Part shown: positions 19,723 to 45,624 of the stretch, in pieces
Layout of the letters: each line of letters begins with the position of its first letter
Numbering within the stretch: position 1 is the first letter of the stretch
Assembly (NCBI GenBank): GCA_002457595.1
Contig: NTJR01000003.1
Coordinates: 1-45,673, forward strand
Direction of reading: 5' to 3'
DNA: 45,673 bases
DNA from: Marine Group II euryarchaeote MED-G36
Lineage (GTDB): Archaea; Thermoplasmatota; Poseidoniia; Poseidoniales; Thalassarchaeaceae
Made by a program: the position numbers and the translations under genes
Notes under the pieces: model-generated
Database searches by the model: none
What the model saw: the letters and a program-made list of their open reading frames with translations, nothing else
What the model was told of the DNA's origin: nothing

Positions 19723-21216
19723 ATGGACTTAGGAAATAACGAGCGAAGGATGCTCAAGTCTATGCTCTCCGCCCCTTCTCGAAATTGGAATTTGAAAGAA
19801 TTACTTGATTCGACGGGATGGGGCGATCAAGTGCATGTTGCGGGTGCAGGAAAGTCCCTTTACGAACAAGGATTAGTAGAAATTTCGGAGACCTCAACGC
19901 GTACAGTAAATCTTGCTTTCGAGGGCCATAAAGCAGCCTCTGAAGAATTACTTGAAGATCGTATTTGGCAGTGGATGCAAAATGCGGATGAAGGAGAAAG
20001 ATCCATGCAGGGCTTGTTTGCAGCAGGATTTGAACGTCATGAGGCAGGACCGGGAATTGGTCTTCTCAAGTCCCTTGGTATCAAAATTGAAGATGGCTCT
20101 TTCGTCTTTAGCAATGCTTCAGAAGTCAGTGAAGTAATTGCAAAACGTTCAGAATTTATTGAGAAACTTTCGCAAGAACCAATCTCTGAAGACGAATTGG
20201 ATTCAGAACTTGTTTCTCATTTTGCAGGTCGCAAAAATCTAATTTCTATTGAAGAAACAACTAGCCGTACTTGGACTCTAACCAACAAAGGTTCTGGAGT
20301 CAAATCATCAGACCTTGGTGAAATTGAGCAGATTGGCCAGTTGACTCCTGAAATTCTTCAAGGAGAATCATGGAGAGAGGCAGAATTCAAACCATTTGAC
20401 GTAAATGCTCCAGCGCCCACTCCTGCAGGAGGACGCCCTCATCCTATGCTGGCATTGATAGAAAGGATTCGTTCAGTTTTCCTAGAGATGGGTTTTTCTG
20501 AGATTGAAGGAAATTATGTTCAATCAGCTGGATGGAATATGGATGCGTTATTCATTCCTCAATCTCATCCGGCTAGAACAATGCAAGATACCTTCTATCT
20601 GTCCGAACCGAACAAGGTTCAGGTTTCTCCTGAGATGCTTGACTTGTGGGCCAGCGTCCATGAGCATGGACATGATACAGGAAGTAGAGGATGGGGTGCT
20701 AAATTTGACAAAGAAGAAGCCCAGAAGGCATTACTAAGAACTCATACAACAGTCAATACAGTTCGTCATATCGCTGAAAATCCTGACGAACCCTGTAGAG
20801 TATTTGGCATTGGTCGAGTATTCAGGCAGGAAACTATTGATCGAACTCATCTCCCTGAATTCCACCAAATTGAGGGCATTATCCACGAACCTGATGCGAA
20901 CCTACCAATGTTGATTTCTACCCTCAAAACATTCTATGCCAAGATGGGTTATCCTGATGTCCGAGTTCGCCCAGCTTACTTTCCTTACACAGAGCCATCC
21001 GTAGAGATAGAAGTTTTCTGGCGTGGCCAATGGCTTGAGTTGGGCGGTTCCGGAATTTTCCGACCAGAGGTTACTGAGCCCTTGGGAACAGAATGGCCGG
21101 TGTGTGCTTGGGGTATGGGGCTCGAGAGACTTGCAATGCTTGTACTTGAATTGGATGATATCAGAGAGTTGTACCAACCGGATCTCGAGAGACTTCAGGA
21201 TATGCCGATTCTCTGA
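19723..21216 (+). CDS. pheS: Phenylalanyl-tRNA synthetase alpha subunit
   Basis: The catalytic subunit of the heterotetrameric class II PheRS. The N-terminal 200 residues contain winged-helix modules typical of archaeal/eukaryotic PheS (NNERRMLKSMLS). The core shows motif 1 around HPMLALIERIRSVFLEMGF, motif 2 PCRVFGIGRVFRQETIDRTH...EFHQIEG, and motif 3 WGMGLERLAMLVL. I prefer the ATG at 19723, preceded by GAGGTG; a GTG at 19672 and an ATG at 19681 are alternatives. PheT does not follow, so the two subunit genes are separated. The last 56 bases overlap the convergent YHYH-protein gene. Confidence 0.95.
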   Translation: MDLGNNERRMLKSMLSAPSRNWNLKELLDSTGWGDQVHVAGAGKSLYEQGLVEISETSTRTVNLAFEGHKAASEELLEDRIWQWMQNADEGERSMQGLFAAGFERHEAGPGIGLLKSLGIKIEDGSFVFSNASEVSEVIAKRSEFIEKLSQEPISEDELDSELVSHFAGRKNLISIEETTSRTWTLTNKGSGVKSSDLGEIEQIGQLTPEILQGESWREAEFKPFDVNAPAPTPAGGRPHPMLALIERIRSVFLEMGFSEIEGNYVQSAGWNMDALFIPQSHPARTMQDTFYLSEPNKVQVSPEMLDLWASVHEHGHDTGSRGWGAKFDKEEAQKALLRTHTTVNTVRHIAENPDEPCRVFGIGRVFRQETIDRTHLPEFHQIEGIIHEPDANLPMLISTLKTFYAKMGYPDVRVRPAYFPYTEPSVEIEVFWRGQWLELGGSGIFRPEVTEPLGTEWPVCAWGMGLERLAMLVLELDDIRELYQPDLERLQDMPIL

Positions 21217-23140
21217 GTCCGTTTGCTGCCACAACAGCCATTGCAAGTAACGATATTACAATAGCGCCACTATTTGGCGGTGTCTTGAACCAAGGAGAAA
21301 TAACAGGCAGTACTTCACTCGACTGTCCTTGACCTCCACCTGGTGGTGGGCCAGCGTCACAACCTTCTGGCGGTGGTCCTATTCCAGGGCCCCATACATC
21401 CCCATCTGGAGGTCCTCCTGCACAGGGGTCGTCATCTCCTCCTCCGCCTCCTTGTCCTGCGTCGCTATTACCTGCTTCCATGACACCTCTGTAACAGTAA
21501 ATGAAGTATGGAAATCCTAAGTCGCCTTCTCCATTTACCCAAGTTGAGTGATAATGGTAAATTCCTTCAGGGTAGTCTGGAGTAGGGCTGTATACTCCAT
21601 TGCAGGCATCTAAGTCACCTAGACCAGCAACATACTCGTAGTCGTCTATTCCATTGTAACCACTTTCGCCTTCCTTAAGTTTGTATGAAGAAGTCATTTC
21701 TTTGGTATCGCCATCCTCATCCCAACCTACAAATCCATAGATAGGGTAACCATCGAAAGCAAAGCCGATTATTGGCGAATGCTCACTAACTGTGCGCGAT
21801 GATTCCATATTGTAGTCAGCCCAAGTCTCTCCATTATCTTCATCGGCGTGCCAGTGCATACAGTTCGCATCAGCATGGTAGTGGTATTCCCCTCCTGGTC
21901 CAGAATGTGCGTGACAGATTCCTAACCAGACTTCTTGCCGATCTTCTTCGTACTCTCCCTCTTGGTTTGCCACAGCATCTCCTCCAGGGCCGTCTTCTGG
22001 TCCGAAGATAGGAACGCCATTTACTGCAACTGCAACAGGTCCTCTTTCTGGTGCTAGAGTGCATCCATCAGATGATGTTGAGGGGTCACAACCAGTTTGA
22101 TTTGTAGGCTCTAGTGGTAGAGTCCATTGGTGGTCCTCTTGAGCACTTGCACAACACCCTGGCCCTGATTCTAAGTCATGGTTGGGTAGTCCATTAGAGT
22201 CAATTTGAATATGAGTTTCATTTAGAGTGAAAGAAAGTTCACAGATGTGATTGTCGAATAAGGGGTCTCCATTCTCGTCAGTAGTATTGTAGTCGTCAAT
22301 TCCCTCAACCTGCTCCGTTGAGTCACAAAGTAGAACTTTTTCCCACCATTTCTGACTACCAGTAATTATTTCATCATCATCTTCATACTCGCATGAACCA
22401 TCATCTTCCTCAGCATTCTCGTCAAAGTTGTTAGCCTCAGAGTCGGTGCAACCACTAATTGGTGATGGATTTACTGTAAAGTTGACAACACTCGAATCTA
22501 TAGTAATGAAATTTATACCACAAGAAACTTCCATTGAAATTGAAACATTTTTTCTCATATTTTCTAGTGTCAATGAGAAATCTCCATTTTCTTCGAATGG
22601 TAAAATCAGTTTACTTTCTTCCAAATCTGTATCTGACCAAAAGAAATTACAACTTGAGATACTACTGTGTGAGACATTACCACTTAATTCTCCATTATCT
22701 CCATAATCTACAGTAGTAGGAAACGAATCAAGCGAAATTGTGGCGTTCTCTTCAGGTGGGAAAACAATAGTGAAATCTGTGAACCATCGTGTCTCTTGAT
22801 TGAGCTTATCAAAAGCAATAATATTCAGAGAGTGTGAACCAACTTCTAAATCACTGATGTCAATAGAAATCCCTCCCTCTTCATCGATTAAGTAATCCGA
22901 TACTACGTTACTGTTCAGACTAATGTCAATAATTAAATCTTCTAAATCTTCATCACTTATAGTAACTGAAATCGATTCGAGGGTCCCAATCTCAAATTGA
23001 CCTGGCTCATCTCCTGTGATCACCGGTGGCTGGTCGACTGGTGGCACTTGCTCGATATCGAAATACAGGATTCCGACCATTACGCTGCCAACCATAAGTG
23101 CTGCAAGAAATAGGCTACGCACCTGGTCTGCATTCTCCAT
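21161..23140 (-). CDS. Exported YHYH-domain protein, membrane anchored at both ends
   Basis: About 659 residues. An N-terminal hydrophobic helix (LFLAALMVGSVMVGILYF) acts as signal or anchor, and two beta-sandwich-like segments follow (residues 40-230). Next is a short Cys motif of the GCTDSEANNFDENA type, common in secreted proteins of aquatic microbes. A large YHYH-family domain (residues ~265-545) is rich in histidine: GICHAHSGPGGEYHYHAD, CMHWHAD, GIYHYHSTW. A Gly/Pro-rich linker leads to a C-terminal helix (GAIVISLLAMAVVAANG). YHYH domains have no settled function; the His clusters suggest metal binding. The last 18 codons are antisense to the end of pheS. It is the last gene of the minus-strand block that holds SCO and cupredoxin-like genes. 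The start ATG at 23140 is preferred to a TTG at 23149. Confidence 0.75.
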   Translation of the reverse strand: MENADQVRSLFLAALMVGSVMVGILYFDIEQVPPVDQPPVITGDEPGQFEIGTLESISVTISDEDLEDLIIDISLNSNVVSDYLIDEEGGISIDISDLEVGSHSLNIIAFDKLNQETRWFTDFTIVFPPEENATISLDSFPTTVDYGDNGELSGNVSHSSISSCNFFWSDTDLEESKLILPFEENGDFSLTLENMRKNVSISMEVSCGINFITIDSSVVNFTVNPSPISGCTDSEANNFDENAEEDDGSCEYEDDDEIITGSQKWWEKVLLCDSTEQVEGIDDYNTTDENGDPLFDNHICELSFTLNETHIQIDSNGLPNHDLESGPGCCASAQEDHQWTLPLEPTNQTGCDPSTSSDGCTLAPERGPVAVAVNGVPIFGPEDGPGGDAVANQEGEYEEDRQEVWLGICHAHSGPGGEYHYHADANCMHWHADEDNGETWADYNMESSRTVSEHSPIIGFAFDGYPIYGFVGWDEDGDTKEMTSSYKLKEGESGYNGIDDYEYVAGLGDLDACNGVYSPTPDYPEGIYHYHSTWVNGEGDLGFPYFIYCYRGVMEAGNSDAGQGGGGGDDDPCAGGPPDGDVWGPGIGPPPEGCDAGPPPGGGQGQSSEVLPVISPWFKTPPNSGAIVISLLAMAVVAANGLRESAYPEVSRDPVGTTL

Positions 23141-23178
23141 ATTGCTCAATGAAATCGCAACACCATTTCAAGATATAC

Positions 23179-23232
23179 CTGCAAATGTTTGCAATACTAT
23201 GCAAAACCTAGCAAATTCGCATTGAGCAGTGC
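23179..23232. promoter_or_regulatory. Cluster of GCAAA motifs upstream of YHYH gene
   Basis: Within 54 bases upstream of the YHYH-protein start there is an inverted repeat GCAAA-TG-TTTGC (23181-23192), then GCAAAA (23201), GCAAA (23211) and GTGCAATT (23229), at roughly ten-base spacing. This looks like a helically phased operator array, implying that the YHYH gene has its own regulated promoter. Inference only. Confidence 0.35.
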
Positions 23233-23240
23233 AATTCAAT

Positions 23241-24299
23241 TTATTCGTCAGCGAGAGTCTGTAAATCTACAACAAACCCTTCTAAATCCCAAGATGTGCC
23301 TGTATAAGCAATTCTCTTGCGCATTTCTTTGTCTAGGATGAAAGTGACTGTAGAATGCCCTACTTCGTAATTGCTGAGGCTTTCAGAGTGGGGGTTAGTG
23401 CCATTTTCTTCATCGGATGTTCCTTCAAGGACACAGGACAACCACTCGCCGTCTGGTCTTTCGTAACCGCCGTCACACATGCAGTGCGAATTACTACCTG
23501 AACCCATGACCCATCCTTTGCCATTGCAGTCTACTCCAACGGGTAACATCGAAAAGTTAGCATTTTGAGCAACCCAAGCAATATGTGTATTGTGATCAGC
23601 ATTTGAGTCCAAGAAACCATCTTCTGCCATTGTCCAACTCCAAGTATCGAGGTCCCATTTGTAAAGAGTCCAATTTACCTCAGAATCCAAGGTTAGATTG
23701 TTCTCCTCGCGAGCCATAGTATCAAGATCAGAAACCGTGCTGCTAAGACTCAGATTCTCAAAAGGATAGTCGATTTTGAAAGTTGAATTATTTTCGTTCA
23801 AAAGCAATACTCGATTTGTAGCGTCTTCTGGAGGCGAACTTGCAGCAATGTGTTCATTGTCTACAATAACATTCCAATCCCTGTAAATCTGAACCAATTC
23901 ACTCGATTGTTCCGAAGTTAAGTGTGCCCAATCATAATTCATCAATTCAGTCCATTCAGCCATATGCTCGACAGTATCACGTGCAGGATCAATTGTAATT
24001 GAAATAAATAGAACTGCTTCTTCGTACCCGTCTAAGTTTTCCTTAGCCCAAGCCATATTGGCCGAGATGGCAAGACAGATGTCTGGACATGCAGTGTAAA
24101 TGAAGGCTACAACAATGACTGTGCCATTGTGGTCAGAGAGAGTAAAACTCTCTCCATTCTGGTCTAGCAAAGTGAAGTCAGGTGCTATTGGAGGCTCTCG
24201 ATACTCGATACCATTGAACTCTAAATCATCTCCACCTTGTCCTAAGCAGCCAGAAATCATGATGGAAACAAGAAATAAGGAAATGAACGATTTTCGCAT
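23241..24299 (-). CDS. SCO1/SenC-family lipoprotein with large insertion
   Basis: An exported thioredoxin-fold protein of the SCO family, which delivers copper to cytochrome oxidase or acts as a thiol-disulfide reductase. A lipobox ends at Cys18 (MISGCLGQ). The copper/redox cysteines are Cys71 and Cys75 (ACPDIC), and ISITIDPARDT is the next conserved strand. The third ligand, His315, lies in YEVGHSTVTFILD near the C-terminus. Between them sits an unusual insertion of about 130 residues (~160-300) with four cysteines (VDCNGKGWVMG, HCMCDGGYERPDG, WLSCVLEG). At 352 residues it is far longer than normal SCO (about 200). It follows SCO-A after 4 bases. Confidence 0.87.
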   Translation of the reverse strand: MRKSFISLFLVSIMISGCLGQGGDDLEFNGIEYREPPIAPDFTLLDQNGESFTLSDHNGTVIVVAFIYTACPDICLAISANMAWAKENLDGYEEAVLFISITIDPARDTVEHMAEWTELMNYDWAHLTSEQSSELVQIYRDWNVIVDNEHIAASSPPEDATNRVLLLNENNSTFKIDYPFENLSLSSTVSDLDTMAREENNLTLDSEVNWTLYKWDLDTWSWTMAEDGFLDSNADHNTHIAWVAQNANFSMLPVGVDCNGKGWVMGSGSNSHCMCDGGYERPDGEWLSCVLEGTSDEENGTNPHSESLSNYEVGHSTVTFILDKEMRKRIAYTGTSWDLEGFVVDLQTLADE

Positions 24300-24303
24300 G
24301 ATT

Positions 24304-25035
24304 TCACTCTTCTAGTAGAACGCGGATGTCTTCCATAACCATCTCAGCATTCCAGTCTGTATCTGCCCACCAAACTCTCTGATTTAGACTCTTGTCAACT
24401 ATGATTGTTCCAGTCGTGTGGTCTACCCAATAACTCAGAGGATGATGTTTCACAGTAACATCTCCTTGTTCCTCTTGTTGCGTATCTAGCCCGCATCCAT
24501 CATCGTCTACAGACTCCCCTTCAGGAGTGTCTGCACATTGATCAAACCCGTCAGCTACACCATCTCCATCTTGGTCAGAGTCATAAGTTGTGAGACCTAC
24601 ATCGAAGTTCTGCCATACTGGTTCTATTTGTTCCAAGTCACCTGTAAGATGTGGCCAATCAAGGTCTCTTTCATCTGCATACTGATTTAGTACAGAAGAG
24701 TTGTCTGTCCAAGGGTCAACAGTAATTGAGATGATGGCTACTTTAGTTCCATAGAGGTCTCCAAGTTCATTGGAAACGTAGTCTAGATTTGCACTAACTA
24801 TTGGGCAAATATCAGGGCATCTTGTGAATAGAAATGCCACAACAATTACTTGTCCTTCTAATTCACTAAATTGGAATGCTTCGCCATTTTCATCAATAAG
24901 TGTGAAATCTTCTACAGGAACTGAAGGACTAATTTTTTCTCCGTAGAACTTACTATCTTCTTGACCCATACATCCACTAAAAAGAAATCCAAAAGTCACG
25001 AAAATGGTCAAAATTTGTCTTAACTTCTTTTTCAT
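24304..25035 (-). CDS. SCO1/SenC-family lipoprotein with thrombospondin type 3-like insertion
   Basis: A second SCO protein, in the same operon. The lipobox is FLFSGCMG (Cys22). The CxxxC pair is Cys73/Cys77 in TRCPDICP, ISITVDPWTDN follows, and the copper-ligand His206 is in YWVDHTTGTIIVDK. An insertion at residues 152-184 has the form DSDQDGDGVADGFDQC...DDDGCGLD, a calcium-binding thrombospondin type 3-like repeat placed inside the SCO fold, ahead of the His-bearing strand. This could make metal delivery or partner docking calcium-dependent. The start codon lies two bases after the stop of the cupredoxin-like gene, so translation is likely coupled. Confidence 0.88.
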   Translation of the reverse strand: MKKKLRQILTIFVTFGFLFSGCMGQEDSKFYGEKISPSVPVEDFTLIDENGEAFQFSELEGQVIVVAFLFTRCPDICPIVSANLDYVSNELGDLYGTKVAIISITVDPWTDNSSVLNQYADERDLDWPHLTGDLEQIEPVWQNFDVGLTTYDSDQDGDGVADGFDQCADTPEGESVDDDGCGLDTQQEEQGDVTVKHHPLSYWVDHTTGTIIVDKSLNQRVWWADTDWNAEMVMEDIRVLLEE

Positions 25036-25037
25036 CC

Positions 25038-25574
25038 CTATTCCTCCTTTACACGGCGATGGTTCCAGATAATTGCTGCAGCAGCAATGGAGAGCACTGC
25101 ACCTCCAATTAGAAGAGTCCCACTATCAATTCCGATATCCTCTGATTGTTGTTGCCCTCCAGATAGATTATACCCACTTGGTGGCAAGTTCTCAGTATGA
25201 TTGTCATTCATTATTTTCAGACTAATTAATCCCCATTCCTCCCCTTCTTGTGAAACTATTACGTTCAGTTCCTGACCGGTCCAATTTGCAGGATTCAACC
25301 AAAGTCGACATTCATCATCAACACTAGATGAATTGGATTCAGTAACATTGCAACTCCAGTCATTTACACCGTCCCCTTCGAGATCTATAGTCAACACTCG
25401 GCTTTGGTTTGCAACATTATAGAATACTAAAGTGTCATTTTGTTGAACGGTGGCCAGTTCTGGTTGTATTGATGAATTTCGTAAGATAAAAGAGAATGTA
25501 TCAGCACCGTGAGCAGTTACTGATGGTACCAATAGTAACGTCACCAATATAGCGGCAACGAACTTGATTCGCAT
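25038..25574 (-). CDS. Membrane-anchored cupredoxin-like protein with predicted N-terminal His (copy A)
   Basis: 178 residues. A signal peptide (MRIKFVAAILVTLLLVPSVTA) is predicted to be cut after Ala21, leaving His22 as the first mature residue, as in CopC and other histidine-brace copper proteins. A beta-sandwich follows (TFSFILR, TLVFYNVANQS, VLTIDLEGDG) with a likely disulfide (SCNV ... DDEC), then a Ser/Gly linker and a C-terminal helix (LLIGGAVLSIAAAAIIW) with a basic stop. The histidine that copy B has in its core strand is Arg here (NQSRVLTID), so the inner copper ligands look lost. It sits between the beta-propeller gene and SCO-A with gaps of 9 and 2 bases. The fold assignment is by pattern, not search. 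Confidence 0.65.
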   Translation of the reverse strand: MRIKFVAAILVTLLLVPSVTAHGADTFSFILRNSSIQPELATVQQNDTLVFYNVANQSRVLTIDLEGDGVNDWSCNVTESNSSSVDDECRLWLNPANWTGQELNVIVSQEGEEWGLISLKIMNDNHTENLPPSGYNLSGGQQQSEDIGIDSGTLLIGGAVLSIAAAAIIWNHRRVKEE

Positions 25575-25583
25575 CGCCTCACC

Positions 25584-27539
25584 TCATTCGTTCTCAATCG
25601 CTTCAGCCGACCATAGAGCAGGATAATCAAAGCGGGAATCATAATCTTCATCGAATTGAACTACATAGACTCCACTTACCATTTCGGAAATGTAGATGAA
25701 CCCACGCGGGTCATATTGTAAGCCCCAATCAAATGGTATCATGCAAGATGCCCAGCAATCAGCTAAATCATACTGCAAAGTTGCAGCGGGGTCTTCTATC
25801 CAAGTAGGCCCCGCTGGAAGGTAGTATCCTATAGTGTGAGTTTCTGCCAAACTCTCAATGGCCTGAAATCCTCTATCTGGTTCTGGATATCCATTTTCCC
25901 ATTCAATCTCATCCCATATTTTCCCATGATCAGTCACCCATGTTCCCGCATGGTAGTGAGCCCAGTATACATGACCATCCGCTCCAGTATCACCATTGTG
26001 AGGGCTGAATATGTAACCTCCAGGAATATAATGCTGAGGATGACTACTGCCATTTTCAAGAGTTCCTTCACCTGGCAATCGCCACTTGGATACAAGGAAT
26101 GGTTTGGTAGGGTCGGTCGTGTCGATTGTCCAGACATAACCCGTGTGATTAGCATTCGAACCGTATTCTGGGGCGATGTAAGTGAAATGTCTCCAATTGA
26201 TTCCAAATGTTGCATCATCTGGTCCCGAACCACAATTTTCTGGCCATGTTTCTATTGGGTCGATTTCACTTATTCCCGAACAGACAAGATTGTCCATTGG
26301 TACAGCGTAGTGTATGTTGTCGTTTCCTTGATTGGAATCTAACCATTCTTCGGGACTCATATTTGCGTGTCCGCCCCCATCAGGGCCATACCAGCCATCG
26401 TCAGCGGTCGGACACCCTAGCCAGCGACCAACCTCCGGCGGCCATGAAACTCCGAATGGGTCGGCTACGGTTGGTGGGTCACTAACATCGACTAGTCTGA
26501 GACCAGCTCCCCAGTATGAGACTACCAGAAGTTTCTGTTTTGTTATTGGATGTTCGAAGTAGACATTGTCATGATTGAAGATGGAACCTCCACAGGTAGT
26601 GTATGGTTCAGGAGTATAACCACCCCAGCGAATAATTTCACGGCTTGAGTTCTGTTGCTCATTGTTTTGATTAGGAAGCCAAGATTCTAGTCCCAGTGGC
26701 ACATAGAAAACTTGAGTGCCTTTGTAGAAAGTTCCTGAACTACCTTCGACCATCTCTGGGTAAGGGTCTGCTCCGAATAGGAATAGGCTACATTCCTCAC
26801 GAGGGTCTATCGCACCATCCCAGTCACAATAGACATGCAGGTCTTGATTGTGGAAGCCTGCAGGTGGGTTGTTCCATTCTGCAACTTTTACTGGGCTAGT
26901 TTTATCCCCAACATAGATGACATCTAGTCGATTCGTACCACTGTTAGCATCGTCGTCATTAGGAATTGGATCCAACTCACTATTGGTAAGTTCGTGGTTA
27001 ATCAAAACCCAGTTGTTGTCCGGGGTGACTTTGATGTCGATTATTCTGGCAACTTCGGCATAATATGTTGAGAGCATCTGGATATTGTTAGGTGAACTGA
27101 TATCGAGAATCTCAAATTGATTATAACTTGAAACATAAGCATAGCAACCTCCTGTTCCGTCAGCATAGATTTCACAATCTTCGTCGAAGTTTCCTTCTAT
27201 CGCTATCTCTGAGTTATCTCCGGGTGTTGGTCCAGTGTTCTTTGAGGATTCAAGACACGGCCTACCCATTGTGTCGTCAAATTCAGCAGGAGGTTTGACT
27301 TCTCCATCACAGTTTAGGTTATGATAATCAATAAGTTTGGTATTAGATGTTGATAGTCTATGAGAAAATAGGTCGCTATGAGAGTGGTTCTCATTTTCAA
27401 TTTCCATAACAGGGTCTACCCATCCTTCGTTAATCGAATCTGAACTATCTGGTTTGAAAATAGCAATACAGCCACTCATCGGTGCAGCAACCATCAGAAA
27501 AACCATAATTAGCATTGGAAATTGAGTAGTTCTGGTCAT
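25584..27539 (-). CDS. Lipoprotein with LVIVD-type beta-propeller (copy B)
   Basis: 651 residues from the ATG at 27539, which opens a lipoprotein signal peptide (MTRTTQFPMLIMVFLMVAAP, then MSGC). Repeated blades of the form WGAGLRLVDVSDPP, QFEILDISSPNNIQML and SGVYVVQFD identify an LVIVD-repeat propeller. Histidines cluster at blade edges: GFHNQDLHVY, FNHDNVYFEHP, HPQHYIPGG, FSPHNGDTG and WAHYHAGTW. Several recur at the same places in copy A, suggesting a metal site, perhaps like that of copper-dependent SBP56/methanethiol oxidase propellers. Starts further upstream (27575) would spoil the signal peptide. Fold confidence is good; the enzymatic role is inference. Confidence 0.72.
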   Translation of the reverse strand: MTRTTQFPMLIMVFLMVAAPMSGCIAIFKPDSSDSINEGWVDPVMEIENENHSHSDLFSHRLSTSNTKLIDYHNLNCDGEVKPPAEFDDTMGRPCLESSKNTGPTPGDNSEIAIEGNFDEDCEIYADGTGGCYAYVSSYNQFEILDISSPNNIQMLSTYYAEVARIIDIKVTPDNNWVLINHELTNSELDPIPNDDDANSGTNRLDVIYVGDKTSPVKVAEWNNPPAGFHNQDLHVYCDWDGAIDPREECSLFLFGADPYPEMVEGSSGTFYKGTQVFYVPLGLESWLPNQNNEQQNSSREIIRWGGYTPEPYTTCGGSIFNHDNVYFEHPITKQKLLVVSYWGAGLRLVDVSDPPTVADPFGVSWPPEVGRWLGCPTADDGWYGPDGGGHANMSPEEWLDSNQGNDNIHYAVPMDNLVCSGISEIDPIETWPENCGSGPDDATFGINWRHFTYIAPEYGSNANHTGYVWTIDTTDPTKPFLVSKWRLPGEGTLENGSSHPQHYIPGGYIFSPHNGDTGADGHVYWAHYHAGTWVTDHGKIWDEIEWENGYPEPDRGFQAIESLAETHTIGYYLPAGPTWIEDPAATLQYDLADCWASCMIPFDWGLQYDPRGFIYISEMVSGVYVVQFDEDYDSRFDYPALWSAEAIENE

Positions 27540-27600
27540 GCAAACACCTTGGTAGCGCTCCCGCTGACCTAGCACAGCAATTCAATGCAGCGGTCCGTAG

Positions 27601-27618
27601 CGCCCTCTAAAGAGGGCG
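27601..27618 (-). terminator. Perfect hairpin between the two propeller genes
   Basis: CGCCCTCT-AA-AGAGGGCG forms an 8-bp stem with a two-base loop, starting four bases after the stop of propeller copy A and ending 62 bases before the start of copy B. No T-run follows on the minus strand, so it may be an mRNA-stability or processing stem rather than a classical terminator. Confidence 0.5.
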
Positions 27619-27621
27619 TAT

Positions 27622-29370
27622 TTAGGACTCTAAAGGCATTCCATATGGGGAATCAATATCGAGTTGCACGATATAGAGTCCTGAGGTAATGCAAGAGAGA
27701 TAGGTGTATCCTTCATGGTATTCTGCCGCCCAAATGAAAGGAGTCCATCCGAATTCATAGTATGAACTATCTAGAGGGACTCCATCCATTCCGTGTGGTA
27801 GGTTGTAACCTATTGTGGCCTGCATATGAGCTACTGTTCGGTTCATATCTTCTTCTAATCCAAGCGCCATCAGTGTCTCGATATCAACAACCCATACTCC
27901 AGCGTGGTAACTTGAGAGGTAGATTCGGCCATCCCAAGCTCCTCCGTAACTATTGTCGGGAAGGCCAGGTAACCCAGTTTGGAAGATCTGAGTATCCGCA
28001 TTGTGAGGGCTGAAAAGCAACCATTCCTCACCACCAGGGATGTGGTGTAGTTCTGCGAAAGGCAACTCATAACCATGAATCAATTTTGGTTTGAATGTGA
28101 CCTTTCCATTTACACTTTCATATTCAGTTGTGTCAAGTAAGTACCCCATTCCAGTTCCTACACTAGTTTCTAGAACTTCAGTTGCAAGGAATGTCAGATG
28201 CATTTTTCCAGTAGGATATCCTAGATGTGATGCATCAACCATCTCATCGATTGGTTCTGCATAATGAATGTATGAGGCACGGCCTCCATTCTCATTACTA
28301 GTGCAGCCACAATCCATTTCGCCATCTCCATCTAAATCAGCGAATTCCATCCAAAGTCCTACTTCAGGTGCTCTCCAGTTGCATCCCAATTGGGTTCCAA
28401 ATGACCCTCTGCAAGCAGCTGCCACTGTTAGGTACTCTACCATGTCATTACCCGGATGAGGGACATCTGAAACATCGAAAATCCTTAGCCCTGCTTCCCA
28501 GTAGGCGCCGTAAACGTAGGTGCGTCCAAAACGTGGGTCATTTTGATCTTCTCCAGGCCAAGTCTGAACGGTCATGTCGTGAATGTAAATCCAGCCTCCC
28601 AAAGTAGTCTCCCAACTGACTTCGGCCTCGCCCACTTTGACGATTCGAGGAAGATCCCCATAAGCGGCGAAGTTGAGGTGAGCAATTGTGATACCACCAC
28701 AAGCATCTCCTTGACCAACATCACATTGTTCGTAGTCGGGGTTGGCCACAAAGATGTACCATTCATTGTCCATCATATGTGTGTAGAGATTGTGAGGTCC
28801 GCTTGGGTGGTCTGCATCATACCAAGCATCTACAAATTGAGGGTCAGTCTTGTCTGTAACATCTACTAAAGTCACGGTGACTTGAGCAGGGTCTCCCCAT
28901 TCACCTACGTTTGGATCAGCACTACCCGGATCTACTAATTGATTTTGAACAATAACATATTCTCGTCCATTGTATTCAAGATACTTCACATCCAAAACTT
29001 GAGTATTGGGGTCAATGTAGACTCCGGTAACGGTAGTATTAGCTGGGTTTGTGACATCGACAATGTGTAATTCGGACCATCCAGCAATGTAAGCATAGGT
29101 ATTGCCATCAGGAGAGTCTGCGACTTGAATTTCGGCATTCCCTGGTGCAGTTAATGGATTGAATGAAACTGGAACCAAGTTCTCAGTATACAATTCATGT
29201 TGGCTAGCATTTCTATGGTCATGCCCCTCTACATCGATTAGAGGGTCGACCATAATTTCAGAGGAGTTCGAATCGAGTGAATCTTCTGATGATAACATCA
29301 TCATTGCGACTCCACCAATCAAGAGAGTCAAGGCGAGTGCCCCTGCGATGACAGCCCGCTCGGTATCCAT
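27622..29370 (-). CDS. Membrane-anchored LVIVD-type beta-propeller (copy A)
   Basis: 582 residues. An N-terminal helix (VIAGALALTLLIGGVAMMML) anchors or exports the protein, followed by a Ser/Asp linker and a His-containing segment (VEGHDHRNASQHELY). Blades such as AGWSELHIVDVTNPAN, VTLVDVTDKTDPQF, YWEAGLRIFDVSDVPH and SGLYIVQLD are LVIVD repeats. Conserved His motifs shared with copy B are GPHNLYTHM, WIYIHDMTV, FSPHNADTQ and SSYHAGVWVVD. Cysteines CDVGQGDACGG and DGEMDCGCTS may form disulfides. It is the first gene of the minus-strand block and diverges from cupredoxin-like copy B with only 49 bases between start codons. It may be a metal-dependent oxidase or a binding protein. Confidence 0.75.
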   Translation of the reverse strand: MDTERAVIAGALALTLLIGGVAMMMLSSEDSLDSNSSEIMVDPLIDVEGHDHRNASQHELYTENLVPVSFNPLTAPGNAEIQVADSPDGNTYAYIAGWSELHIVDVTNPANTTVTGVYIDPNTQVLDVKYLEYNGREYVIVQNQLVDPGSADPNVGEWGDPAQVTVTLVDVTDKTDPQFVDAWYDADHPSGPHNLYTHMMDNEWYIFVANPDYEQCDVGQGDACGGITIAHLNFAAYGDLPRIVKVGEAEVSWETTLGGWIYIHDMTVQTWPGEDQNDPRFGRTYVYGAYWEAGLRIFDVSDVPHPGNDMVEYLTVAAACRGSFGTQLGCNWRAPEVGLWMEFADLDGDGEMDCGCTSNENGGRASYIHYAEPIDEMVDASHLGYPTGKMHLTFLATEVLETSVGTGMGYLLDTTEYESVNGKVTFKPKLIHGYELPFAELHHIPGGEEWLLFSPHNADTQIFQTGLPGLPDNSYGGAWDGRIYLSSYHAGVWVVDIETLMALGLEEDMNRTVAHMQATIGYNLPHGMDGVPLDSSYYEFGWTPFIWAAEYHEGYTYLSCITSGLYIVQLDIDSPYGMPLES

Positions 29371-29419
29371 ACTGTTCTTCGTGTCTGCGAGTCATGTTGA
29401 AGTCTTTGCTGCGCTACGA

Positions 29420-30031
29420 ATGGACATGGCGAGAGCGCACCTGCTTGCTGGAATCCTGTTAATCGGGATATTGTTTAGCCCCTCTGCCTATGCCCATGAC
29501 CAAAAAGAATACACAATAATTCTACACTCAGAGGGCTCTAATCCAGACGGTGTGAATGAAGGGATATTGGTGGATACTGATTCACTTTTCTTCAGAAATC
29601 ATGATTCTAGAGATGGCGCAATGCATCGTATCTTAGTCGATGCCAACTCTGATGACGAATTCGGGGGTGTCGATGATTTTGACTCTGGCTGGCTAAATAC
29701 AAATTGTGAGAAGAATGAAACTGGTGCTCTTGTTGATAGTGATTGTAAAACAGCCGCATTCATTGAACTCTCAGCGTCTAATGGGTTACTACCTGGAAAT
29801 ATTTCTATGATGCACCAAATTGATTTTGATGGCGTGGTTGAAGAATATTCATTCTATGCTAATTTTGCACTGGACGATCATTCAGTAAATTCAGAACCAG
29901 GAACTCCTTCAACGACTGATGACAACACAAAATCTTCTCGAGATTCAAATCTAAGGGCTGTAATTCTGTTTTCAGTCTTTGTCTCCCTTCTATTAATCGT
30001 TAAACTAACTAACCACAAAAACGATGATTGA
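29420..30031 (+). CDS. Membrane-anchored cupredoxin-like protein with predicted N-terminal His (copy B)
   Basis: 203 residues. The signal peptide (LLAGILLIGILFSPSAYA, perfect A-x-A) leaves His26 as the first mature residue. The mature protein parallels copy A: YTIILHSEG, SLFFRNHD, HRILVDANSDDE, a Cys pair (NCEKNETG ... SDCK), MMHQIDFDGVVEEYSF, a linker and a C-terminal helix (AVILFSVFVSLLLIVKL). Unlike copy A it keeps internal histidines (NHDS, AMHRI, MMHQI), so with the N-terminal His it could bind copper. The start is the ATG at 29420 or 29426; anything upstream overlaps the divergent propeller gene. The paired layout ties it to the block on the other strand. Confidence 0.65.
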   Translation: MDMARAHLLAGILLIGILFSPSAYAHDQKEYTIILHSEGSNPDGVNEGILVDTDSLFFRNHDSRDGAMHRILVDANSDDEFGGVDDFDSGWLNTNCEKNETGALVDSDCKTAAFIELSASNGLLPGNISMMHQIDFDGVVEEYSFYANFALDDHSVNSEPGTPSTTDDNTKSSRDSNLRAVILFSVFVSLLLIVKLTNHKNDD

Positions 30032-30178: not shown

Positions 30179-30209
30179 CCCCCCCTCTCGCCATGCTTCA
30201 GAGGGGGGG
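30179..30209 (+). promoter_or_regulatory. Perfect 10-bp hairpin covering the crtI start
   Basis: Seven C plus TCT (30179-30188) pair perfectly with AGA plus seven G (30200-30209) around an 11-base loop. The right arm includes the purine-rich region before the desaturase and the first G of its GTG start. In RNA it would be very stable and would hide the start. It also begins only 13 bases after tRNA-Ala, so it may instead end or process the tRNA transcript. Confidence 0.65.
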
Positions 30210-31753
30210 TGTCCACGAGCCGTGATGTGTTGATTGTTGGAGCAGGACCTGGTGGTCTGGCTTGCTCATTACTCTTAGCGAAAGCAGGTATCAAGGTGAC
30301 TATACTTGAGAAATCAGATGGCGTCGGTGGTCGGACACGAGTATTTGAGAAGGATAATTATAGGTTTGACACAGGGCCTACATTCTTTCACTATACAGAA
30401 ATCATTGAAGAAATATTTCAAGCAATAGGTCTTGATGCCCATGATGAATTGGGACTTATTCCTCTTGATCCAAATTATCGAATTATTTTCGGTGCAGGAG
30501 GAAGCCTTGACGCAACCACAAATCTAGATTCGATGACTGAACAGATAAGCCAGTTGTGTGGGGAAAAAGAGGCTAATGGGTTCCTATCATATATTGAGGA
30601 TAATAGAAGGAAACTTCGATTATCGAAGAATTGCCTTAACACTCCTTGGAGTGGCCCTTCCGATTTACTTAGCCGTAGGGCATTACGTGTCTCAAAGGTA
30701 CTAAGGCCATGGAGAAGTGTTTCATCTGACCTTTCCAAATCATTCACCGATGAGAGACTTCAGTTAGCGATGTCATTCCAAACAAAATATCTAGGCATGA
30801 GTCCATTCCAAGCTCCTAGTTTATTCACAATTCTAGCCTATCTTGAATATGAACATGGAATATTTCATGCAAAGGGAGGGCTAGGTACAATCACTGAAAA
30901 AATGGCTAAAATCGCGCGAGACATGGGTGTTGAAATAATACTGAATGAACCTGTTACAAAATTCATTTTTGATGGTAAGAAGGTAATCGGAGCAAGAACT
31001 GATAATGGTGATTATACTGCTGATAGATTTGTCATGAATGTTGATTTTGCGACTGGGATGAAAGGTTTGATTCCAGATGCCCTTCGTCGTCGATGGTCTG
31101 ATGAAAAATTGGAACAGAAGTCATATTCCTGTTCTACATTTATGCTTTATTTGGGGATAGACAAGAAGTTTGACACACCTCACCATCAGATATATGCCTC
31201 TAAGGATTACCAAGGAAATTTGCAAGATATTACTGAGCATAAAGTCACTTGGGATGACCCTTCCTTATACGTTCAAAACGCATGTGTCACTGACTCATCC
31301 CTAGCTCCAGAAGGCCATTCTACCCTCTATGTTCTAGTACCGATTTGTAACACACATCCTACTATAAATTGGAAAGAAATTAAGCATGAATATAGAGATT
31401 TAATAATCAGGCAGATGGAGAAATTGGGTTTCCCAAATCTCAATCAACATATTATTTCTGAAACCATCATTACTCCTGATGATTGGGCATCTAGAGATAT
31501 CTACAAAGGTGCTGTTTTCAATCTCGCACATGGGCTTGATCAGATGTTATGGCGTCGCCCGCAGAATAAATTTGAAGAATTAAATCAATTGTATCTAGTA
31601 GGTGGTGGCACTCATCCAGGCAGCGGCCTTCCAACTATTTTTGAAAGTGGCCGAATCTCTGCTAAGATGATTTGTGCGGATATGGGCGTTGAACCAGATT
31701 GGAATGGTGTTAACACTTGGTTTGATGAAATCCGAAAACCATCTTATAATTGA
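30209..31753 (+). CDS. CrtI-type phytoene desaturase / carotenoid oxidoreductase
   Basis: A 514-residue FAD-dependent amine-oxidase-fold enzyme. The dinucleotide-binding motif VLIVGAGPGGLACSLLLAKAG and EKSDGVGGRTR lie at the N-terminus, YRFDTGPTFF is next, and the CrtI C-terminal signature LYLVGGGTHPGSGLPTIFESG is complete. It would desaturate phytoene or saturate/isomerise related carotenoids, possibly toward retinal or membrane pigments. The start is a GTG directly in the G-run; a 7-base G tract sits at the start, and the ATG at 30193 would come into frame if one G were lost. No crtB or rhodopsin gene is in the window. The exact carotenoid substrate is open. Confidence 0.88.
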   Translation: MSTSRDVLIVGAGPGGLACSLLLAKAGIKVTILEKSDGVGGRTRVFEKDNYRFDTGPTFFHYTEIIEEIFQAIGLDAHDELGLIPLDPNYRIIFGAGGSLDATTNLDSMTEQISQLCGEKEANGFLSYIEDNRRKLRLSKNCLNTPWSGPSDLLSRRALRVSKVLRPWRSVSSDLSKSFTDERLQLAMSFQTKYLGMSPFQAPSLFTILAYLEYEHGIFHAKGGLGTITEKMAKIARDMGVEIILNEPVTKFIFDGKKVIGARTDNGDYTADRFVMNVDFATGMKGLIPDALRRRWSDEKLEQKSYSCSTFMLYLGIDKKFDTPHHQIYASKDYQGNLQDITEHKVTWDDPSLYVQNACVTDSSLAPEGHSTLYVLVPICNTHPTINWKEIKHEYRDLIIRQMEKLGFPNLNQHIISETIITPDDWASRDIYKGAVFNLAHGLDQMLWRRPQNKFEELNQLYLVGGGTHPGSGLPTIFESGRISAKMICADMGVEPDWNGVNTWFDEIRKPSYN

Positions 31754-42734: not shown

Positions 42735-45518
42735 TCATTCAATTCGTCTTCTAGCTACTAGCATAGCTGACAATATTGCTAGAGTGCCTAGAATAGCCCC
42801 AAATCCAGGAGTCTCATCTGGGGCTACATAATCAGGTCCATCTGTATTGTCTGAATCTAAAGAATCACAAATTCCATCACCATCAATGTCATCTGGGATG
42901 GATGATGAATCCAGTGAATTTGACCCACAGGAATCTTCATCTGAATCACTCCAAGAATCGTTATCATCATCTGTATCTGCATTATCTCCTGTGCCATCTG
43001 AGTCGAAGTCACTCCATTCTGTAGAATCTCTTTCAAATGCGTCGTCAGCATCTCCGAATCCATCTCCATCATCATCAGGATCTTGCAGATCACACATTCC
43101 ATCATTATCCAAGTCATCGGGAATAGAATTGCTATCAAGAGTATCAGATCCGCAGTTTGTTTCTATATCATCAGGCCACGAGTCACCATCGTCATCGGCA
43201 TCTTGTGAATCACACAAATCATCGTTATCTGTATCAAGCCAATAATTTGCATCAAGAGGTGCACAATCATCTCCATCATCATAGCCATCTCCGTCATCGT
43301 CTACGTCAGTTGAGTCACATTCTCCATCCGTGTCTGAGTCTAATGGTAATGAGGAACTATCTTTTGGATCCGATGCACAAGCAATTTCGTTAACATCTGA
43401 AACACCATCTCCATCATCATCGTCATCTTGACCGTCACAAATTTGGTCGTTGTCAGTATCATCCCAATCGCTGACATCTAGAGGTGCGCAATCGACACTG
43501 TCGTCTACCCCGTCACCATCATCATCGTCATCTTGGCCGTCACAAATTTGGTCGTTGTCAGTATCATCCCAATCGCTGGCATCTAGAGGCGCACAATCGA
43601 CACTATCTTCTACGCCATCTCCATCATCGTCAGTGTCAGCATTATTTCCAATATCATCATCGTCAGTATCGGTATCTTCAGTATTGTCTAGAGGGAAAGC
43701 ATCATCCAAATCGGGAACGTTGTCGTTATCATCATCATCATCTAGAACATCACACAGTCCATCATTATCATAATCTGCTGGAATACTACTTCCATCTCGA
43801 GGGTCGCTACCACAATTAGTTTCCATAGTATCTTCTACACCATCTCCATCGTCGTCGGTGTCAGCATTGTTTCCAATGCCATCACCGTCAGTATCTGCAG
43901 ATTCTGTGTAGTCACGCGGAAATGCATCATTTACATCGAGTACTCCATCACCATCGTCATCAGTATCTTGGTTGTCACCGATTGCATCTGCAATACATTC
44001 AGTTGTACAGGATGCATCTGTGTTATTCCATTCCGTAGGGTCAGAAGGAAAAGCATCCTGTGAGTTGATGTATCCATCTCCATCATCATCAAGATCTAGT
44101 GAATCACAAATTCCATCTCCGTCAGAATCTGCTGGAATGCTGTTTCCATCTAGCGGATCAGTTCCACAATCTGCTTCTTCTAGATCAGTCCACGAATCAC
44201 CATCGTCATCATCATCATCAACGTCGCAAATTCCATCATTATCTGTATCAATTGCCTTGCTTCCGTCTAAGGGTGCACAATCATTAGCGTCACTGGTGCC
44301 ATCTCCGTCATCATCATCATCCAAGGCATCACAATTCCCATCATTGTCGGTATCCATAGGAATACTGCTTCCATCCATGGGGTCACTTCCACAGGCAATT
44401 TCAGTTGAGTCGGATGAGCCATCATTGTCATCATCAGTGTCTTGACCATCACAGATTCCGTCACCATCATTGTCCGAACTCTCACTTGAGTCAAGAGGTG
44501 CGCAATCACTAGAATCGTCTATTCCATCTCCGTCATCATCATTATCGAGGGAATTGCATGTTCCATCGGTATCTGTGTCAACTGGAGTTGATGAATTATC
44601 TAGAGAATTAGTATTACATGCAGCTTCATCTAAGTCACTCCATCCATCATCATCATCATCTAAATCCTCAATTAGAGTAGTACTTCCAGTTCCACCCCCG
44701 CTACTGCTTGAGAAAGTAACATTATCGATGTAGACTGATTCACTGCCTGAATTAGAAGTGAATTCAAATTCTAAATTACCTTGGCCAAGCGAGCTAATGT
44801 TCGAAGTGAAGCTAGTCCAAATTCCCATGTAGGGAGCAAAACCACCGTTATTGCTGGATCCAGTAGCGCCGGTTACATTTACCAGCTCAAGTGTCGAGGA
44901 ACCTCCTACAAATCTGATGATTAGATTGTCTGCGTTCTCGTAGCTATTGGGATTACTACCGCTACCTGTACCTTGAACATAAACATCGAAAGTCATTGAA
45001 TCCGCTGTAACATCGTCAAGAGTCAAGGTTGCAGTTCCATCAACATCACTCATCTGGTATCCTTGTGTTCCTTGACTGAAATTCCCAACCGTTCCAGTGT
45101 AGTTCACCGTTCCAAAGTAGTCGCCATCAGTCAATCCCACTCCACCGGTGGACTCGTAGTACAGTGAGAAACCCATTTCAGAGCCAGTGGATTGGTTATG
45201 AGCGACATGAGGTTCGTTGATATTATTCCAGAGATACCGGTCTACATTCTGGTCACCAGTGTCTGTATAATACATATTGGAGATTGTAAACGGGTCTTCA
45301 AAAGAAGTGTATGATACTACTCCTCCAGACCCGGGGCAACTAATCGAATCAGGCATTCCATCACCATCTGTGTCAGTATCTGCACAAGGGTCATTGGGAA
45401 AAGCATCGTTTGAATCGTCTACCCCATCCCCATCCGAATCATCCGCCAAAACAGTTGGTGGAATCATCACTAGAAGTAAGGCAATTAGTAGAGTCAGGGG
45501 CTTCGCAGAACCGTTCAT
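42735..45518 (-). CDS. Giant exported Ca-binding (TSP type 3) surface protein with PGF-CTERM anchor
   Basis: About 927 residues from the ATG at 45518, which opens a clear signal peptide (AKPLTLLIALLLVMIPPTVLA). A first Asp-rich repeat is followed by a roughly 220-residue beta-rich domain (SYTSFEDPFTISNMYY to SVYIDNVTFSS), probably a lectin/MAM-like sandwich. Then come some 20 thrombospondin type 3-like repeats of the form DTDNDGxCDxxDxDDDGDG with regular CGSDPxDxSSIP spacers. The end is TPGFGAILGTLAILSAML plus RRR: a PGF-CTERM sorting signal that an archaeosortase would cut for lipid anchoring. The repeats should be stiff and calcium-loaded. No archaeosortase is in the window. A start at 45557 would spoil the signal peptide. 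Confidence 0.87.
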   Translation of the reverse strand: MNGSAKPLTLLIALLLVMIPPTVLADDSDGDGVDDSNDAFPNDPCADTDTDGDGMPDSISCPGSGGVVSYTSFEDPFTISNMYYTDTGDQNVDRYLWNNINEPHVAHNQSTGSEMGFSLYYESTGGVGLTDGDYFGTVNYTGTVGNFSQGTQGYQMSDVDGTATLTLDDVTADSMTFDVYVQGTGSGSNPNSYENADNLIIRFVGGSSTLELVNVTGATGSSNNGGFAPYMGIWTSFTSNISSLGQGNLEFEFTSNSGSESVYIDNVTFSSSSGGGTGSTTLIEDLDDDDDGWSDLDEAACNTNSLDNSSTPVDTDTDGTCNSLDNDDDGDGIDDSSDCAPLDSSESSDNDGDGICDGQDTDDDNDGSSDSTEIACGSDPMDGSSIPMDTDNDGNCDALDDDDDGDGTSDANDCAPLDGSKAIDTDNDGICDVDDDDDDGDSWTDLEEADCGTDPLDGNSIPADSDGDGICDSLDLDDDGDGYINSQDAFPSDPTEWNNTDASCTTECIADAIGDNQDTDDDGDGVLDVNDAFPRDYTESADTDGDGIGNNADTDDDGDGVEDTMETNCGSDPRDGSSIPADYDNDGLCDVLDDDDDNDNVPDLDDAFPLDNTEDTDTDDDDIGNNADTDDDGDGVEDSVDCAPLDASDWDDTDNDQICDGQDDDDDGDGVDDSVDCAPLDVSDWDDTDNDQICDGQDDDDDGDGVSDVNEIACASDPKDSSSLPLDSDTDGECDSTDVDDDGDGYDDGDDCAPLDANYWLDTDNDDLCDSQDADDDGDSWPDDIETNCGSDTLDSNSIPDDLDNDGMCDLQDPDDDGDGFGDADDAFERDSTEWSDFDSDGTGDNADTDDDNDSWSDSDEDSCGSNSLDSSSIPDDIDGDGICDSLDSDNTDGPDYVAPDETPGFGAILGTLAILSAMLVARRRIE
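43402..43611. repeat. Near-identical 105-base tandem duplication inside the TSP3 region
   Basis: Two adjacent 105-base units (35 codons) differ at only about seven positions by eye. They encode the same TSP3 block around CAPLDxSDWDDTDNDQICDG. Other repeats in the gene are far more diverged, so this pair is a recent duplication. Confidence 0.8.
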
Positions 45519-45624
45519 GGGCGAGGAAGTGAGGCGGGATTGAAATAATTCACCCACATTGACTCTGTAATTTCCCTGAAGGTTGAACCAACATCCTCTT
45601 TGACCTAATGCTCAAGCAGAGGGT

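Follow-up and report, generated by a model that had tools for sequence, protein, structure and literature searches.

Several described enzymes and metal-binding proteins resemble parts of the locus reported here. Nitrous oxide reductase is a His-rich seven-bladed propeller with CuZ and copper chaperones, and the carotenoid oxygenases are four-His iron propellers. SCO proteins have thioredoxin folds, and the mtoX loci of bacteria carry MauG, for the proposed TTQ cofactor. Bacterial methanethiol oxidase is copper-dependent, and its propeller gene is paired with an SCO gene at mtoX loci (PMC5739008). A smaller copper protein, PfCopC, binds Cu(II) via His1, Asp83, and His85 (PMC7529816).

The locus lies in the window, the whole 45,673-nucleotide stretch of Marine Group II euryarchaeote MED-G36 that was analysed (contig NTJR01000003.1). 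The source genome is partial (888 kb, 57% complete), its nearest relatives belonging to families with genomes of 1.3-2.1 Mb; because the genomes used for comparison are likewise incomplete MAGs, absences are treated throughout as weak evidence. The families compared are the window's own (f1), a sister family of the same order (f2), and a further family of the same class, Poseidoniia (f3). Seven open reading frames were found at positions 21161-30031 (Table 1). Their positions bear out the layout given by an earlier, sequence-only reading, with gaps of 4 bp between SCO-B and SCO-A, 2 bp between SCO-A and Cup-A, and 9 bp between Cup-A and PropB, and with one copy diverging across 49 bp; the LVIVD, SCO, and YHYH assignments of that reading agree with Pfam (PF08309 twice, PF02630 twice, and PF14240 once). 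Read directly from the sequence, all seven products look extracytoplasmic and membrane-tethered: PropB, SCO-A, and SCO-B by a lipobox, PropA by an N-terminal helix, the YHYH protein by a helix at each end, and Cup-A and Cup-B by a signal peptide and a C-terminal helix each. The combination had been put forward as one that matches no described system, and a search of the open-licence literature indeed found no description of an LVIVD/YHYH/SCO1 combination or of Marine Group II copper propellers. The propeller/Cup/SCO set of these uncultured ocean archaea is apparently undescribed, and it looks like new copper-dependent surface machinery.

Table 1. Features of the seven-gene island, in window coordinates.
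Feature	Position	Strand	Description	Pfam match
YHYH protein	21161..23149	-	662 aa, predicted N- and C-terminal membrane anchors	PF14240, E=4.9e-36
SCO-B	23241..24299	-	SCO1/SenC lipoprotein, CPDIC + GH[ST], C-terminal extension	PF02630, E=9.7e-25
SCO-A	24304..25035	-	SCO1/SenC lipoprotein, CPDIC + DHTTG	PF02630, E=1.2e-26
Cup-A	25038..25574	-	178 aa, signal peptide, mature N-terminal His22, beta domain, D124-x-H126, C-terminal anchor	
PropB	25584..27575	-	LVIVD propeller lipoprotein	PF08309, E=2.3e-5
PropA	27622..29370	-	LVIVD seven-bladed propeller, N-terminal membrane helix, HDH-x5-H	PF08309, E=3.8e-8
PropA/Cup-B intergenic	29371..29419		49 bp, divergent layout conserved across the class	
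Cup-B	29420..30031	+	203 aa, signal peptide, mature N-terminal His, beta domain, D-x-H, C-terminal anchor	

Other features of the window were noted in passing. Past the tRNA-Ala beside the island lies a flavin amine-oxidase-type gene resembling phytoene desaturase (CrtI; 30209-31753, plus strand); as a candidate partner of the island, this carotenoid-type flavin oxidoreductase was dismissed, being absent from the flanking sequence of every relative examined. Membership of the locus in an anti-phage defence family was also checked and excluded. At 42735-45557, on the minus strand, a 940-aa Asp-rich protein with a signal peptide, many thrombospondin type-3-like DxDGDG repeats, and a C-terminal anchor is encoded, which is likely a calcium-binding surface protein.

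The two window propellers are about 31% identical and score 33 and 24.1 against PF08309, for which the curated cut-off is 20.2; the start of PropB is probably the ATG at 27539, giving the lipobox MSGC. PF08309 was matched by 48 of 50 PropA/PropB members, LVIVD and EPTP being the only families matched in this Pfam scan. The AlphaFold model of PropA is a beta-propeller (pLDDT 78, pTM 0.82), for which Foldseek returned generic propellers only, LGI1 being the best, and identified no metal fold. The matching His motifs ascribed to the two propellers proved to be real: ten invariant His are common to PropA and PropB in alignment A1, and nine of them are robust to the alignment method (H50, H52, H58, H193, H264, H369, H391, H456, and H489 in PropA numbering), H442 having been left out because it depends on that method. 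When predicted strands were set against the LVIVD pattern, E80, D127, H193, H264, H369, H456, and W547 each opened the innermost strand in one of a series of successive blades, a placement that should set them in a circle around the central channel's mouth. These observations support the view that the propeller His are family-defining and are probably placed where a channel site would be.

Most of these residues (H50/H52/H58, D127, H193, H369, E398, H456, and H489) are also present in propeller homologues from other Thermoplasmatota MAGs and from haloarchaea, although no SCO or Cup gene was detected near these homologues at the loci examined. Thus, the His site appears to predate the link to SCO, which weakens the case for copper as the only possible metal; the site may bind another. 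The one copper-type neighbour seen at these loci outside Poseidoniia is a YHS/heavy-metal P-type ATPase adjoining one such distant homologue (L172). Separately, in two species of the haloarchaeon Haladaptatus, the gene of a His-type LVIVD homologue immediately follows one for an S8 serine peptidase (L210 5021-8467, L211 5008-8455).

Compared with known propellers, PropA and PropB share with the LVIVD/choice-of-anchor B surface proteins the PF08309 repeats, the beta-propeller, and a lipid or membrane anchor, but differ from them in an additional HxH-x5-H stretch, channel His, SPHN and YHAG motifs, and dedicated SCO and Cup partners. With nitrous oxide reductase and the carotenoid oxygenases they have in common, as judged from established knowledge of those enzymes, seven blades and His at the inner strands, yet they match neither in Pfam family and lack a CuA-type partner motif. 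The likeness to the mtoX locus (SBP56 - SCO1/SenC - mauG) lies in an extracytoplasmic propeller with His coordination, putative in the archaea, that is encoded beside an SCO chaperone, an adjacency that recurs in 29 of 34 PropA loci of f2 and throughout f1. In contrast to the mtoX product, however, the archaeal propellers belong to LVIVD rather than SBP56, have Cup and YHYH proteins as partners, and contain many more invariant His.

Both SCO proteins retain the features read from them at the outset, namely a CxxxC motif and a later His: the two are kept in all 46 aligned rows of SCO-A homologues, and in SCO-B as well. In a tree of 54 sequences, SCO-A forms a clade with the PropA-linked and YHYH-linked SCOs of f2 (97/97), apart from the COX2-linked SCOs of that family, which are encoded at a separate locus about 4.5 kb from COX2. 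Because SCO-A stands apart from the latter by both tree and locus, its type is not simply a cytochrome oxidase factor in f2; it probably serves specifically in maturing the propeller/YHYH set. SCO-B groups with the COX2-linked SCO of genome G043 (96/90) and would be an SCO of oxidase type that ended up in the f1 island. The SCO adjoining PropA in the f3 genome G001 is of another type in the tree. Both window proteins resemble the SCO1/SenC chaperones of CuA cytochrome oxidase in family (PF02630) and in CxxxC plus His, and SCO-B also groups with a COX2-linked SCO, whereas SCO-A falls in a separate clade, its linkage being to propeller and YHYH genes instead of COX2.

Two further observations on SCOs came from these comparisons. 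The COX2-linked SCOs of f2 are unusually long, with open reading frames of about 510 aa and a long C-terminal extension (L064, L066-L068, L071, L073, L074, L076, L078, L079, L081-L086, L088, L089, and L092). Genus g15 (L070, L075, and L090) has tandem pairs of short SCO genes, which form a clade of their own (100/99) and are of neither the propeller-linked nor the oxidase-linked type.

Cup-A and Cup-B belong to one family (alignment A2), and neither matches any Pfam or NCBIfam model. The sequence-only reading had predicted that these small proteins begin with His, and this holds across the family, a His following the signal peptide directly in 40 of 41 homologues. After the last strand stands a D-x-H motif (Asp in 38 of 41, His in all 41), and C75 and C89, both nearly invariant, are the sole conserved Cys in the alignment, from which the Cys-His-Met loop of type-1 copper proteins is absent. 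A cupredoxin-like fold is at most a possibility for the pair, and the blue-copper site is missing. The Cup-B model (pLDDT 92, pTM 0.83) gave fold matches all below a TM of 0.5, with the EfeO cupredoxin domain at 0.49 and laccases at about 0.40, and phage baseplate proteins ranked higher than these; a single Cup member of the 41 matches PF13473, weakly (E=0.019).

Another likeness is to CopC and X325/Bim1, which share with the Cup proteins a mature N-terminal His, an internal His with Asp at position -2, and a small extracytoplasmic beta-sandwich. Unlike CopC, the Cup proteins place D-x-H right after the last strand and have a disulfide of their own and a C-terminal membrane anchor; Pfam matched none of the 41 members to a CopC model, and CopC is not among the best results of the fold search. 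To judge by the residues conserved, Cup would be histidine-brace-like (H1 plus D-x-H) rather than a blue-copper cupredoxin, and a Cu(II) site in it is plausible.

The His-rich character claimed for the YHYH protein is evident in its sequence, in which the YHYH motif occurs twice (at 422 and 531) alongside HWH. The 3' end of its gene overlaps that of the convergent PheS gene by about 56 bp (21161-21216), and f1 relatives show the same arrangement of neighbours, with PheS and FolD at the same flank position. The ties of the YHYH family are to the island in f1 and to SCO-A-type neighbours in f2 (L136, L061). The family also occurs in genomes without propellers, and its bacterial neighbourhoods on plasmids contain no clear copper genes.

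Matches to the island's families are widespread among the 146 genomes of the class: PropA in 119, PropB in 113 (the weak ones partly cross-hits to PropA), SCO in 139, Cup in 114 with Cup-B as query, and YHYH in 79. A divergent Cup gene lies within 600 bp of PropA in 97 of 102 long PropA genes. One of the five exceptions is at a contig edge and one has a more distant Cup, while in the remaining three an SCO gene intervenes or the gene is on an f3 contig of such a layout. A closer look at f2 and f3 loci found the divergent Cup beside PropA in 40 of 40, a set that overlaps largely with the 102 genes and is not an independent sample. A co-directional SCO-A gene adjoins PropA in 29 of 34 f2 loci, typically about 12 bp downstream, and all 29 cases among the 40 loci are from f2; SCO-A downstream of PropA was not found in f3 genomes, and the second-type PropA genes of genera g14, g15, and g17 are without an SCO. 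Some PropA/Cup loci lacking an SCO have another set of partners, large M28-peptidase lipoproteins (PF04389) flanking PropA (L205 5260-6981 and 9654-11240; L207 882-2564). PropB, too, is paired with a divergent Cup, in 19 of 22 f2 PropB genes.

Members of f1 retain the gene order Cup-B <-> PropA - PropB - Cup-A - SCO-A - SCO-B - YHYH at comparable spacing (for instance, L123, L124, L127, L129, and L130). The same families form dispersed modules in f2, namely Cup <-> PropA -> SCO-A, Cup <-> PropB, and YHYH with an SCO-A-type SCO (L136, L061); in f1, the propeller modules, YHYH, and a cytochrome-oxidase-type SCO are united in one island. The synteny across planktonic archaea that the sequence-only reading had looked to is thus conserved at the level of sub-modules (Cup/PropA/SCO-A, Cup/PropB, and YHYH/SCO), but in f2 the seven families do not share a single locus. 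The independent scattering that would have spoken against a system is seen in part, in the dispersal of f2 and in the YHYH genes of propeller-less genomes. With about 100 genomes showing it, the arrangement lies far beyond chance, and a conserved functional unit is supported.

We tentatively favour, at somewhat less than an even chance, a surface copper-propeller system specific to Poseidoniia with dedicated SCO and Cup proteins, in which the propeller would be the catalyst, akin to methanethiol oxidase without being a member of its family. In this scheme, the paralogues PropA and PropB, seven-bladed LVIVD propellers anchored on the outer side of the membrane, would bind a metal (most probably copper) at a His-rich channel mouth formed by H193, H264, H369, and H456, with H391, H489, D127, and E80 as further putative residues; the HxH-x5-H stretch just after the anchor is a second putative metal site. 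The copper is most probably inserted by SCO-A, whose gene is presumably transcribed together with PropA, and Cup, through its N-terminal His and D-x-H, most likely holds Cu(II) and gives it to the propeller, or alternatively takes copper or an electron from it. The loaded propeller would most likely work as an oxidoreductase on some small substrate outside the cell, the YHYH protein and oxidase-type SCO-B having joined the same island in f1. This proposal draws on the divergent pairing of PropA and Cup and on SCO-A following PropA in f2, where the locus is otherwise dispersed and the COX2-linked SCOs are of another type; on the invariant His of both paralogues, the CxxxC and His of SCO-A, and the CopC-like ligands of Cup; and on the heavy-metal P-type ATPase beside L172 and the precedent of methanethiol oxidase (PMC5739008). 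Against it count the distant homologues that have most of the His but no SCO or Cup detected nearby, the generic matches of the PropA fold and the weak ones of Cup, the f3 PropA genes that lack SCO-A, the different type of SCO in G001, and the SCO-free genes of g14, g15, and g17.

Other explanations share parts of this evidence. The same proteins may instead form a hub for copper acquisition and delivery, in which the propellers and Cup scavenge or buffer surface copper and pass it to the SCOs for loading cuproproteins, among them cytochrome oxidase and halocyanins, with no catalysis by the propellers. Such a hub, which is possible though on balance doubtful, would fit the finding that in most f1 genomes the only SCOs detected are the island pair, one of them of COX-linked type, as well as the resemblance of the HxH-x5-H tail to a metal-capture segment and the ligand pattern of Cup, since CopC is a strong Cu(II) chelator whose copper ascorbate does not reduce (PMC7529816). 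In f2, however, the propeller-linked SCO-A is separate from the COX2-linked SCO, and a propeller core about 60% identical across the class, with many invariant non-His residues in the channel, seems excessive for a buffer. Persistence of the His set in homologues without SCO or Cup raises the question of whether copper is involved at all: the propellers could be surface binding or structural proteins with another metal or none, and the SCOs could handle disulfides of Cup, with its two nearly invariant Cys, and of the many-Cys PropB, as their thioredoxin fold would allow. The haloarchaeal homologues, which adjoin S8 peptidase genes rather than copper genes, point the same way, but SCO-A retains the copper-site His as well as CxxxC, and the N-terminal His and invariant D-x-H of Cup are hard to explain in a metal-free protein; we regard this alternative as unlikely.

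The pairing of propeller and SCO as at mtoX (PMC5739008), in a marine habitat with methylated sulfur, might also suggest a new archaeal methanethiol oxidase, that is, a diverged SBP56 member with its SCO. This is very improbable, as SBP56 (PF05694) was matched by none of the 50 PropA/PropB members and in 0 of 146 class genomes, and MauG (PF03150) in 0 of 60, results that mostly refute membership. The parallel drawn earlier with methanethiol oxidase accordingly stands as the closest functional one, linked through SCO, but not as common family or cofactor machinery. A chance cluster of unrelated exported genes would accommodate the independent variation of YHYH and propellers in f2, yet it is refuted by synteny, given the linkage, the conserved gaps, and the order kept throughout f1, and scarcely deserves credence.

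Returning to the copper-propeller system, a stronger form of the proposal would make PropA/PropB and Cup a new class of copper oxidoreductase, composed of a His-lined LVIVD propeller, a histidine-brace partner, and an SCO clade of its own. We consider this form conceivable but rather doubtful; if true, it would represent a surface activity of Marine Group II/III outside the known enzyme families. Few uncultured archaea in surface seawater are as abundant as the Poseidoniales, and to our knowledge little of their extracellular biochemistry has been described. The locus offers a case of modules that are dispersed in one family and fused into a single island in another, and through it the Cup, His-type LVIVD, and YHYH families gain a joint, testable context. 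If the copper-propeller system is real, this class-wide set would indicate that seawater hosts a copper-dependent reaction, or a route of copper handling, that has gone unrecognised.
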